64,000 nt of DNA from Acidicapsa acidisoli (GTDB lineage Bacteria; Acidobacteriota; Terriglobia; Terriglobales; Acidobacteriaceae). The stretch covers positions 620,001 through 684,000 of the forward strand of contig NZ_JAGSYI010000003.1 in NCBI RefSeq assembly GCF_025685625.1, written 5' to 3'. Below are positions 7,365 through 48,807 of the stretch, piece after piece. Under the pieces are notes generated by a model, which made no database searches, was not told the DNA's origin, and saw only the letters and a program-made list of their open reading frames with translations. The stretch's first letter is position 1, and each line of letters opens with the position of its first letter. Both the position numbers and the translations under genes were made by a program.

Positions 7365-7440
7365 TGGTGGAGCTGAGCGGGATCGAACCGCTGGCCTCCT
7401 CGTTGCGAACGAGGCGCTCTCCCAGCTGAGCTACAGCCCC
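7365..7440 (-). tRNA. tRNA-Ala (anticodon CGC)
   Basis: A 76-base cloverleaf on the minus strand including an encoded CCA (7365-7367). The acceptor stem GGGGCTG pairs with CAGCTCC and contains the G3:U70 wobble pair that specifies alanine. D-stem GCTC/GAGC, anticodon stem CCTCG/CGAGG around loop TTCGCAA giving anticodon CGC, and a T-arm with TTCGATC are all intact. It decodes GCG codons. Confidence 0.97.
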
Positions 7441-30377: not shown

Positions 30378-30965
30378 ATGCTGCACACATTCGTAGCCTA
30401 TGTCGAAGACAAACCCGGCGTACTCACTCGGGTCGCCTCGCTCTTCCGCCGGCTTAACATCAACATCATCTCGCTCGCGGTCGGTCACAGCGAACGCCCC
30501 GGCATCTCGCGTATGACCATCGTTTGCGATGCGCCCGATCAGGCCGCAGACCGCATTCGCGCCAGTCTCTATAAGCTGGATGACGTCGTCGACGTCGATG
30601 ACATCGCCAAGGCGCCTAACGTCACCCGCGAACTTGCGCTCATCAAGGTGGCCGCAAACGCACACAACCGGTCCCACATCTTTGAGCTTGCTGAAGTCTT
30701 CCGCGCCCGCATCGTCGATCTGGCTCCGGAATCGCTGATGATCGAGATCACCGGCGTCGAAAGCAAGATCGAAGGCCTCATCCAGGTGCTTAACGAAACC
30801 GAAGACCGTGTCCTCGAAGTCTGCCGCAGCGGTAAAATGACCATGCGCCGCGGCAAGCACTCCACCGGAGTCCTCCGCGCCATGGGCGCTGGCGAACCCG
30901 ACATCCCCAAACCCGGCAATCTGCCGCTCGAAAACGGCCCGGACAACTTCGCCGACAACATCTAA
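30378..30965 (+). CDS. ilvN: Acetolactate synthase, small regulatory subunit
   Basis: 195 residues from ATG 30378 (MLHTFVAYVEDKPGVLTRVASL). N-terminal ACT domain (1-75) with EDKPGVLTRVASLFRRLN and the SLAVGHSERPGISRMTIV strand; C-terminal ALS-small domain with ALIKVAANAHNRSHIFELAE. Confers valine feedback inhibition and raises IlvB activity. The tail after residue 165 (GAGEPDIPKPGNLPLENG) is longer and less conserved than in E. coli IlvH. Confidence 0.96.
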   Translation: MLHTFVAYVEDKPGVLTRVASLFRRLNINIISLAVGHSERPGISRMTIVCDAPDQAADRIRASLYKLDDVVDVDDIAKAPNVTRELALIKVAANAHNRSHIFELAEVFRARIVDLAPESLMIEITGVESKIEGLIQVLNETEDRVLEVCRSGKMTMRRGKHSTGVLRAMGAGEPDIPKPGNLPLENGPDNFADNI

Positions 30966-30973
30966 ACCAGTGC

Positions 30974-31008
30974 GGGTGCCCCACATCTCGCTTTTGAGAT
31001 GTGGGATC
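30974..31008. repeat. 35-base hairpin repeat, copy A (between ilvN and ilvC)
   Basis: GGGTGCC followed by a 10-base-pair stem CCCACATCTC (30980-30989)/GAGATGTGGG (30996-31005), loop GCTTTT, ending GGATC. A second copy at 47504-47538 differs at three positions, two of which form one stem pair (C:G here, G:C there), so the hairpin is preserved. Placed within the operon. Confidence 0.85.
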
Positions 31009-31059
31009 GGAACAAGCCTGCTAACTTGCTAACTCGCCAATGCCGCAAAGCGGCGCTAA

Positions 31060-32109
<1,050 letters not shown>

Positions 32110-46851: not shown

Positions 46852-47130
46852 ATGATTCAGAGCTTTAGAGACGATGATACGAGGGAACTTTTTGAATCTC
46901 GCACCAATCGGCGATGGGCGACAATCAGAACGGTAGCGTGCCGAAAGCTCGATCAGCTCCATGCAGCAATCAACCTTGAGGATTTGCGCATTCCGCCGAA
47001 CAACAGGCTGGAGGCTCTGAAGAAAGATCGTCTTGGACAGTTCAGCATCCGAATCAACGATCAATACCGTATATGCTTCCTCTGGAATGAAGATGGGGCG
47101 CACGAAGTCGAAATCACTGACTATCACTGA
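46852..47130 (+). CDS. higB: RelE/HigB-type toxin
   Basis: 92 residues from ATG 46852 (MIQSFRDDDTRELFESRTNRRW). Family motifs: RKLDQLHAAINLEDLRIPPN, RLEALKKDRLGQFSIRIND and QYRICFLWNEDGAHEVEITDYH. HigB toxins cut mRNA on translating ribosomes. Toxin-first gene order, with higA 13 bases downstream, is characteristic of the HigBA group. The mRNA should be leaderless or nearly so. Confidence 0.93.
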   Translation: MIQSFRDDDTRELFESRTNRRWATIRTVACRKLDQLHAAINLEDLRIPPNNRLEALKKDRLGQFSIRINDQYRICFLWNEDGAHEVEITDYH

Positions 47131-47143
47131 AGAGAGGGAAAGT

Positions 47144-47467
47144 ATGACCATCACCAGGCCAGCAAGCGGATGGAACTTCAGCAAACCAACAACTCACCCA
47201 GGCGAAATGCTGAGCAAGGAGTTCCTGAAGCCTCTCGGAATTACCCAGAATGCGCTTGCGGTGAAGATCAATGTTCCTGCAACCCGTATCGGTGAAATCA
47301 TTCACGGGAAACGATCTGTCACGCCGGACACAGCTCTTCGCCTGGCTCGCTTTTTTGGAAACAGCCCGGAATTCTGGCTAAGTCTTCAGCAGAGTTACGA
47401 TCTCTCTAAAGCCAAGCTTGAACTGCGCAAGAAAATCGAGGCCGAGGTACAGACCTACGTAGCCTGA
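47144..47467 (+). CDS. higA: HigA-type antitoxin (XRE family)
   Basis: 107 residues from ATG 47144, with GAGAGGG upstream. Helix-turn-helix region HPGEMLSKEFLKPLGITQNALAVKI (split LSKEFLKPLGITQNALA for orientation) followed by GEIIHGKRSVTPDTALRLAR and FFGNSPEFWLSLQQSYDL, which is the standard HigA signature. Binds HigB and represses the operon; the palindrome over the promoter is the likely operator. Confidence 0.94.
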   Translation: MTITRPASGWNFSKPTTHPGEMLSKEFLKPLGITQNALAVKINVPATRIGEIIHGKRSVTPDTALRLARFFGNSPEFWLSLQQSYDLSKAKLELRKKIEAEVQTYVA

Positions 47468-47503
47468 AACGAGTCGCGTGAGTCTCAAATCAGTAACAAC
47501 TGA

Positions 47504-47538
47504 GGGTGCCCGACATCTCGATTTTGAGATGTCGGATC
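47504..47538. repeat. 35-base hairpin repeat, copy B (between higA and fabH)
   Basis: GGGTGCC then stem CCGACATCTC (47510-47519)/GAGATGTCGG (47526-47535), loop GATTTT, ending GGATC. Differs from copy A at 30974-31008 by one compensatory stem pair and one loop base. Located between convergent genes, where it may also end transcription. Confidence 0.85.
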
Positions 47539-47566
47539 TAACTCGTGCGTAGCCCGAACCCTACCG

Positions 47567-48595
47567 CTAAATTTCCCAGCGCAGCAACGCCGCGCCGACG
47601 GTAAATCCAGCCCCAGCCGCAGCCAGCAGCACGAGATCACCCTTCTTCAGCTTGCCCTCTTCGACAGCCGTCCCCATCGCAAGCGGAATCGTCCCAGCAG
47701 AAGTATTGCCGTACTTCTCAATATTGATAATCACCCGCGAAGGGTCCATGCCCAGTCGGTCTGCTGTCGCCGTAATAATCCGCTTGTTCGCCTGATGGGG
47801 AATGAAACAACCCAGATCCTTGCCTTCGACGCCATTGCGCTCCAGCACGCGCGTGGTCGCATCCGCCATCTTGCGCACGGCAAATTTGTAGACCGTCTGC
47901 CCATCCTGATGAATGAAGTGCATCCCGCTGGCTACCGTCTCCGCAGATGCCGGATGAAGGCTACCGCCGCCCGCCAGATTCAGCGCCGGACCACCAGACC
48001 CATCAATCTCATGCACAAAGTCGATCAGCCCGACTTCGCCTTCTTCCGCGGGCTCGATCAGCACCGCGCCCGCGCCATCGCCAAAGAGAATGCAGGTTGT
48101 CCGGTCCTTGTAATTCACGATCGTCGAGTTCGCATCCGCGCCGATCACCATTACCTTCTTGTGCGCGCCGCTCTCCACCAGCTTCGCGCCCGCCTGCAAG
48201 GCAAACACAAACCCCGAGCAGCCGGCAGAGACATCGAATCCCCACGCACCCTTCGCGCCGATCTTGTCCTGCACGAGGCAGGCCGTCGAGGGAAACATCA
48301 TGTCCGGCGTAACCGTGCCAACAATGATCGCTTCCACATCCGTCGCCGGAATCCCGCGAGCCGCGAGGCAGCGCCGCGCCGCCTCGGCCGCCATATCGCT
48401 AGTTCCCTGTCCCTTGTCCAGAATGTGGCGCTCTTTAATACCCGTGCGCTCGGTAATCCACTGGTCGTTGGTCTCGACCATCTTTTCGAGATCGGCATTG
48501 GTCAGAATTTTTGGGGGAACGTAAGTGCCGAGTGCGCTGATTTTGACTCGTGTGCAATGCGGGCCGCGGAAGACCTGACTCGAATCTGGGGTCAA
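47567..48595 (-). CDS. fabH: Beta-ketoacyl-ACP synthase III
   Basis: 342 residues counted from a TTG at 48595 (GGAG seven bases upstream). Homology itself begins at [20 protein letters not shown] near 48550. Active-site Cys in [14 protein letters not shown], His in [13 protein letters not shown] and Asn in [14 protein letters not shown] form the FabH triad. Starts fatty-acid synthesis by condensing acetyl-CoA or a branched acyl-CoA with malonyl-ACP; branched-chain primers would come from the keto acids of the leu/ilv pathway. A longer frame to 48736 would run into the SRP RNA gene, which argues for the short form. Confidence 0.93.
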
Positions 48596-48705: not shown

Positions 48706-48807
48706 AAAAAAGTACCGGGTGACCTACTGCGCCCACACTGGCCCGTTACCGTTGCTTCCTTCCGGACCTGGCGGGGTTGGCGGGGTTGTGTCGCGTAGGA
48801 CCCGGCA
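48706..48807 (-). ncRNA. ffs: Bacterial small signal recognition particle RNA (4.5S)
   Basis: About 100 bases on the minus strand. The apical loop contains CAGGTCCGGAAGGAAGCA, the universally conserved SRP domain IV core. The ends GCCGGGT and ACCCGGT pair to close the hairpin, and the 3' end runs into TTTTTT (48706-48711), an intrinsic terminator. On the upstream side TATCAT lies seven bases before the presumed 5' end. Binds Ffh to target nascent membrane proteins. Confidence 0.93.

Follow-up and report, generated by a model that had tools for sequence, protein, structure and literature searches.

Dispersed GGGTGC-headed hairpins of Acidicapsa acidisoli as probable REP-type mobile palindromes of RAYT-family transposases

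Two similar hairpins in the window (the whole 64,000-nucleotide stretch of Acidicapsa acidisoli DNA analysed here) are in all probability (roughly 0.87) solitary, non-autonomous REP-type mobile palindromes, spread by RAYT-family transposases that would recognise them as single strands with GGGTGC as guide; that the dispersed hairpins of this genome were spread by a RAYT transposase is almost certain. Direct support comes from the copies themselves, the covariation of their stems, their association and coevolution with RAYT genes, and their insertion relative to related genomes. Recognition of single-stranded DNA, the guide role of GGGTGC, and cleavage and joining are what we infer by analogy with E. 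coli TnpA-REP. The mobile unit would be a hairpin of about 33-36 nt with the GGGTGC head directly 5' of its foot, and it would be bound as folded single-stranded DNA by Y1 (HUH) transposases of the RAYT family whose genes lie elsewhere in the genome, or by relatives of these since lost. Such an enzyme would read the head as a guide, tell subfamilies apart by the stem, and paste single units next to GGGTGY, mostly between genes. We propose that the stem arms stay complementary because a copy unable to fold would go unrecognised.

The two window copies and their family in the genome

Both 35-base hairpins lie where the sequence-only reading had placed them (30974-31008 and 47504-47538) and have 32 of 35 bases in common. 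As it had also claimed, one stem pair is changed on both sides, from C:G in copy 1 (30982:31003) to G:C in copy 2 (47512:47533), and the third difference is a loop base (C at 30991, A at 47521). With up to three mismatches allowed, the 35-base pattern occurred twice in the window and in none of 100 dinucleotide shuffles. As single strands both copies fold to a hairpin of 10-11 bp (-18.6 kcal/mol for copy 1 and -18.2 kcal/mol for copy 2, with z of -4.2 and -5.05 respectively and 0/200 shuffles equally good). The gene contexts given for them were right as well: copy 1 lies between ilvN, whose stop is 8 nt before it, and ilvC, 80 nt after it, and copy 2 lies between the convergent higA and fabH genes, 36 and 30 nt off. 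An antisense ORF called at copy 1 by a first gene caller was spurious, and that caller was replaced by a self-trained one. The features are:

30974-31008, plus strand: copy 1, GGGTGC-tagged hairpin of the short form with ACATCTC stem, between ilvN and ilvC
30974-30979, plus strand: GGGTGC head (tag) of copy 1, a head conserved around RAYTs of relatives
30980-30989, plus strand: 5' stem arm of copy 1, from sequence and fold
30996-31005, plus strand: 3' stem arm of copy 1, from sequence and fold
47504-47538, plus strand: copy 2 of the hairpin, in which the pair 47512:47533 is swapped to G:C, lying between the convergent genes higA and fabH
47510-47519, plus strand: 5' stem arm of copy 2, from sequence and fold
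47526-47535, plus strand: 3' stem arm of copy 2, from sequence and fold
47480-47503, plus strand: probable degenerate left flank module of copy 2, by eye, like the left flank of C2:643389
47537-47559, plus strand: probable degenerate right flank of copy 2, by eye, like the CTAATTCGTGCGNAGCACGAA tail of other copies
30378-30965, plus strand: ilvN, acetolactate synthase small subunit, upstream of copy 1
31087-32109, plus strand: ilvC, ketol-acid reductoisomerase, downstream of copy 1
47087-47467, plus strand: higA-type antitoxin gene, left of copy 2
47567-48595, minus strand: fabH, beta-ketoacyl-ACP synthase III, right of copy 2, start uncertain

The window also holds a bacterial small SRP RNA (48710-48807, minus strand) and a tRNA (7368-7440, minus strand), both Rfam matches at gathering score.

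A covariance-model search of the whole 7.1 Mb genome, which the sequence-only reading had suggested, found the element far beyond two copies. The model of the 33-nt short form gave 54 matches at E<=1 and a second model, of a longer sister form, gave 75 at E<=0.01, together 126 distinct places (about 50 short and about 73 long). The short-form model was built with pairing and so its matches lean towards paired stems; a pairing-blind anchor search of the genome gave 15 matches, of which about 10 were judged by eye to be hairpins, whereas the reversed control pattern gave 0. Counting a palindrome matched on both strands once gave 49 short-form places, 44 of which lie outside the genes called by the self-trained caller, the window being 81% coding. 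The element thus shares two features of REPs, being a short palindrome in many dispersed copies that are mainly extragenic. The head GGGTGC is common to subfamilies whose stems differ (GGTCTC; ACATCTC, as in the window copies; TGTCTC or TGTCTG; and the long ATCCTTGACGCG type), and the ACATCTC subfamily makes up 8 of the 46 short-form copies that were compared. In some copies, at L018 and several other loci, the left module is longer, with GGCGGGTGGCCCAGRTCTCAA followed by AT-rich sequence, and the tails of some are TTCGGCCAAGCC or a CGTGC-GCACG mini-hairpin, which suggests longer composite elements. The left-module motif was seen by eye upstream of the heads in several copies, and a simple pattern for it was found at only 3/104 heads in relatives, so we do not claim it as general.

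For the stem comparison 50 of the 54 short-form matches were examined, and four with other loop lengths were excluded, leaving 46 33-mers (37 distinct). Mismatches occupy 16/460 stem cells, and 56/276 loop cells depart from the majority base, with loop positions 18, 19 and 21 free to vary. In the 37 distinct rows 96.2% of 370 pair cells are paired, falling to 8.5-50.3% in slid registers, and two-sided changes are seen at 6/10 pairs, where shuffles expect 2.4 and none of 500 had as many. G:T accounts for 11 of the 27 departures from Watson-Crick pairing in the 46 33-mers, a share not clearly above the expectation from one-sided transitions on a rough estimate. By these covariation statistics, either selection acts on stem pairing or the pairing is maintained by templating. 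The proposal that the hairpin itself is selected is therefore supported genome-wide: stem mismatches are not as frequent as loop changes and the element is not absent elsewhere. Recognition of single-stranded DNA by a transposase explains this conservation as well as selection at the RNA level does.

RAYT transposases and the hairpins around them

The A. acidisoli genome has four Pfam Y1_Tnp genes and all four proteins pass NF047646, the model for REP-associated tyrosine transposases (93.5-109.9 bits, cut-off 80). Protein searches added a fifth, weak RAYT relative and a 3' RAYT remnant; no RAYT gene was found in the 64-kb window itself. The best PDB match of the 177-aa RAYT is E. coli TnpA-REP (4er8, E 6.7e-7), and the HUH and Y---NP motifs (H61, H63, Y116, N120 and P121) are invariant in 14 aligned proteins. 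The gene for this 177-aa RAYT has inward-facing GGTCTC copies on both sides, the second overlapping its 3' end, and the 171-aa RAYT has inward-facing long-form copies on both sides and an ACATCTC copy nearby. The ACATCTC stem of the window copies differs from the GGTCTC stem that flanks this genome's intact short-form RAYT; ACATCTC-stem hairpins instead flank a RAYT of another species (L078), 70% identical to it.

The 3' remnant (G000:C3:840096-840317, residues 104-177, 77% identical) has a hairpin copy at its end, as expected of a derivative with an internal deletion, and similar remnants were seen in G001 and G011. By eye, the other two RAYTs (L017 and L018) are apparently flanked by a different repeat (GGAGCAGGGGCCTTCAGGCCCCTG... 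and CGAAGGGGCTTCAGCCCCGGGCC), probably a second REP system.

Short-form matches were found in 15 of 61 genomes, all among the 37 of the family and none among the 24 outside it. Within the genus, the copy-rich genomes (at least 18 copies) coincide one for one with the genomes whose RAYT match is better than 1e-44, so that a close RAYT is present in 7/7 copy-rich genomes versus 0/8 of the others, which have 0-1 copies (Fisher p 1.6e-4, uncorrected for kinship). Across the whole 61-genome set a simple rule of copies with RAYT is broken by four genomes on each side: G019, G027, G029 and G035, outside the genus, have a close RAYT without a short-form match, and G025, G030, G036 and, within the genus, G004 have 1-5 matches with a weak RAYT or none.

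A scan with the RAYT alignment gave 80 named loci, all with acidobacterial titles (among them Acidicapsa dinghuensis, Terracidiphilus, Granulicella, Edaphobacter, Occallatibacter and many MAGs), of which 77 had 150 nt on both sides. At these 77, a scan that demands a G[GC][TC]G[CG]C head found an inward-facing hairpin upstream of 52, downstream of 52 and on both sides of 39, compared with 9, 12 and 2 for hairpins in the wrong orientation. A head-blind search found a strong inverted repeat at 61 of the 77, with GGGTGCC in 49 of those 61, and no strong flanking repeat at the other 16; mispaired flanks reached the same score in 37/376 cases and direct repeats in 15/77. At the 40 of the 80 loci with hairpins on both sides, upstream and downstream stems were more similar within a locus than between loci (0.83 vs 0.34; 0/10,000 permutations), and the similarity of hairpins followed that of RAYTs (Mantel r 0.67, 0/10,000), both tests being uncorrected for kinship. 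In these flanking hairpins of relatives the GGGTGC(C) head is constant and the stem varies with the RAYT, which is what a guide plus a recogniser of folded DNA would select. Taken with the RAYT-flanking copies and the co-occurrence, the constant head points to a REP/RAYT system with a GGGTGC tag.

A "compensatory" pair could also come about without selection, through templated correction of quasi-palindromes. The two-sided change of copy 2 might have arisen in this way, one arm being copied at replication from the mutated other, and copy 2 is indeed the only one of the 46 33-mers with G:C at this pair; perfect stems with other pairs are likewise confined to few subfamilies, the pattern expected if changes were inherited or templated. 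We nevertheless think this explanation rather unlikely, as stems are renewed across dozens of RAYT loci in step with the RAYT, and correction alone is insufficient for this without a selector.

Insertion, copies inside genes and a role in RNA

GGGTG[CT] stands directly before 7 of the 49 short-form copies, compared with 8 occurrences at all 142 other upstream positions together. Among the 126 places, neighbours within 150 nt of each other are head-to-tail in 9/9 pairs and inverted in 0/9. Four copies lie in frame inside genes, two in folC (L024:413-1873), one in era (L038:748-1875) and one in a helicase-like gene (L055:571-3000), and the fifth genic call is the copy overlapping the RAYT's own 3' end. 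GAPGLASETW, GAPHLASEMW and TQVSESRPGAP are among the peptides that the in-frame copies encode. Both folC copies lie in length-variable loops, with nothing similar in most of the orthologues of 13 relatives (that of G010 has other insertions there), and at the second folC site comparison of the DNA with relatives showed an addition of about hairpin size. The era region is variable in length in all relatives and so insertion there is less clear. Some copy sites are empty in relatives.

The first of the two window sites also varies within the genus. Between ilvN and ilvC, G004 and G011 share the downstream spacer with A. acidisoli without the hairpin, G001 has one whose immediate flanks differ, G010 has a decayed one, and the other genus members examined lack it, so that it is absent in 10/12. 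Within that spacer the motif GCTAACTCGCTAAC...GCCGCAAAGCGGCGCTAAC (window 31020-31070) also occurs in the ilvN-ilvC spacers of G004 and G011 and behind fabH in G001; it turns up repeatedly between genes in relatives and may represent a further dispersed repeat. At the 3' end of fabH, GGTGCC-headed hairpins with other stems were found in G004, G002 and G011, and by eye none was present in most genus relatives, including G001 and G010. Such hairpins are rare (0-2 per 20-kb stretch), and in 60 kb of G004 around both sites the only strong one is that at fabH. The recurrence at these sites has p of about 0.001 at 5% occupancy and 0.05 at 15%, from hand-set small counts in which G002 and G011 are not independent. 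A four-protein species tree, from which the fabH of G001 was excluded after a motif filter had missed it, is weak at its deep nodes (29-68% support). The repeated occupancy is suggestive of an insertion preference or of retention at 3' ends.

The same observations bear on whether the hairpins are RNA-level elements, protecting mRNA, pausing polymerase or setting ilvBN:ilvC expression, perhaps having arrived as REPs and been co-opted. The position of copy 1 just past the ilvN stop within an operon, that of copy 2 between convergent 3' ends, the hairpins of relatives at both sites where such hairpins are otherwise rare, and fold stabilities of z -4 to -5 would all suit such a role. However, most relatives of the same genus have no hairpin at either site, the recurrence test is weak in that its p depends on the assumed occupancy, and the G:T departures are no clear sign of selection on RNA. 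A search for a U-tract terminator at the ilv copy was negative, and neither hairpin had an Rfam match at gathering score, the SRP RNA and tRNA being the only such matches in the window, and hence a known Rfam RNA was rejected. We therefore consider an RNA-level role unlikely. The sequence-only reading had offered both an RNA-level element and a small mobile palindrome, and it is the latter that stands and can now be named, as a REP-type element of a RAYT. At the 3' ends of genes the hairpins may later have acquired a role in RNA; if ilv or fabH/higA mRNA is affected at all, we regard this as secondary to mobility. A compensatory stem change in a dispersed hairpin should not be taken as proof of RNA function.

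MITEs of a different (DDE) transposase family would also be short, palindromic and dispersed, but here hairpins of matching sequence point inward on either side of Y1/HUH RAYT genes and follow the similarity of the RAYTs. On this association, with GGGTGY adjacency as the insertion-site feature surveyed, we rejected such MITEs as very improbable. Also very improbable are ordinary intrinsic terminators alike by chance, for although the hairpins lie near gene ends they have no T-run found after the stem (by search for copy 1, by eye for copy 2), carry the GGGTGC head in near-identical sequence at about 50 places, and occur inside coding genes.

Comparison with known REP-type systems

The closest likeness of the RAYT-spread hairpins is to the GTAG REPs and REPtrons with their RAYTs (TnpA-REP). 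The available parts of PMC3733652, PMC6006769 and PMC8266576 describe, as here, a conserved 5' head, dozens of mostly intergenic copies, many of them close to the 3' end of a gene, a transposase gene flanked by copies in inverted orientation, RAYTs specific to their repeats and some genic copies; REPs inside genes were reported before in the accessible text of PMC3733652. Unlike GTAG REPs, the hairpins here have GGGTGC rather than a GT[AG]G tetranucleotide at the foot (the four foot bases are GTGC), which makes this a REP-like variant and not a canonical GTAG REP, and neighbouring copies are head-to-tail (9/9 within 150 nt).

The transposases differ too. W94, Q95, E100, H101 and R104 of E. coli TnpA-REP are discussed with the guide sequence in the available portions of PMC6006769 and PMC8266576. 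Aligned to TnpA-REP, the RAYTs here have W, mostly Q, D, F and mostly an aromatic residue at these positions (W94 in 14/14, Q95 in 11/14 and R104 in 1/14 aligned proteins), and so depart from the W94/Q95/R104 pattern of the GTAG-associated subclasses. The named loci were found by peptide patterns, one of which contains YDFN, so the uniform D100/F101 among the 77 is partly built in; R104 lies outside the pattern and is present in 1/77. The different tag and the different contact residues would fit together, as a correlation between sequences.

REPINs are likewise non-autonomous and RAYT-linked with compensatory changes, according to the accessible part of PMC3116915, in which 93% of REPIN doublets are inverted. 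The inverted doublet unit that defines REPINs was not seen here, where the window copies are single hairpins and the 126 places include no inverted pair within 150 nt. Rickettsia palindromic elements resemble these hairpins in having palindromic copies in frame inside protein genes, but RPE-4 and RPE-6 have a CGTC tag and the CGTC repeats lack a transposase association, as far as the available text of PMC3733652 describes them, whereas the RAYT association here is clear.

Also close are the acidobacterial TIRYTs and TIRtrons described in 2013: in Terriglobus, Koribacter, Acidobacterium and Granulicella, Y1 transposases lie between terminal inverted repeats (TIRs), and one of the TIR families of Koribacter recurs within its genome (PMC3733652). 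The GGGTGC hairpin/RAYT system very likely overlaps with these, although, compared by text motif only, GGGGCACC does not fit the motif GGGGWSAS that is given for part of the TIRs (PMC3733652). The GGGTGC head was not found in the available parts of the REP/RAYT literature, nor of that on Acidobacteria or Terriglobus (where only PMC3733652 and PMC6006769 came up), and none of the matches listed for the literal GGGTGCCCCA and TGGGGCACCC concerned bacterial repeats.

A tentative further suggestion, to which we give slightly less than even weight, is that the Acidobacteriaceae have a separate REP/RAYT system, with a GGGTGC(C) guide, H101F and loss of R104, a single unit of about 36 nt placed beside GGGTGY (so that copies would stack head-to-tail), in-frame landing in essential genes, free replacement of stems, and repeated retention of copies at the 3' ends of the same genes, a hint that they were co-opted as mRNA ends. 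In the available literature on how RAYTs choose target and substrate the guide was tested only for GTAG, and a test set for the guide code would be provided by this large natural clade of RAYTs, in which the head is another one, stems coevolve with RAYTs and GGGTGY is a candidate target. REP/RAYT systems and acidobacterial TIR-flanked Y1 transposases are thus already known, and it is in its GGGTGC head that the present system differs from the tags described so far in the parts of that literature available.
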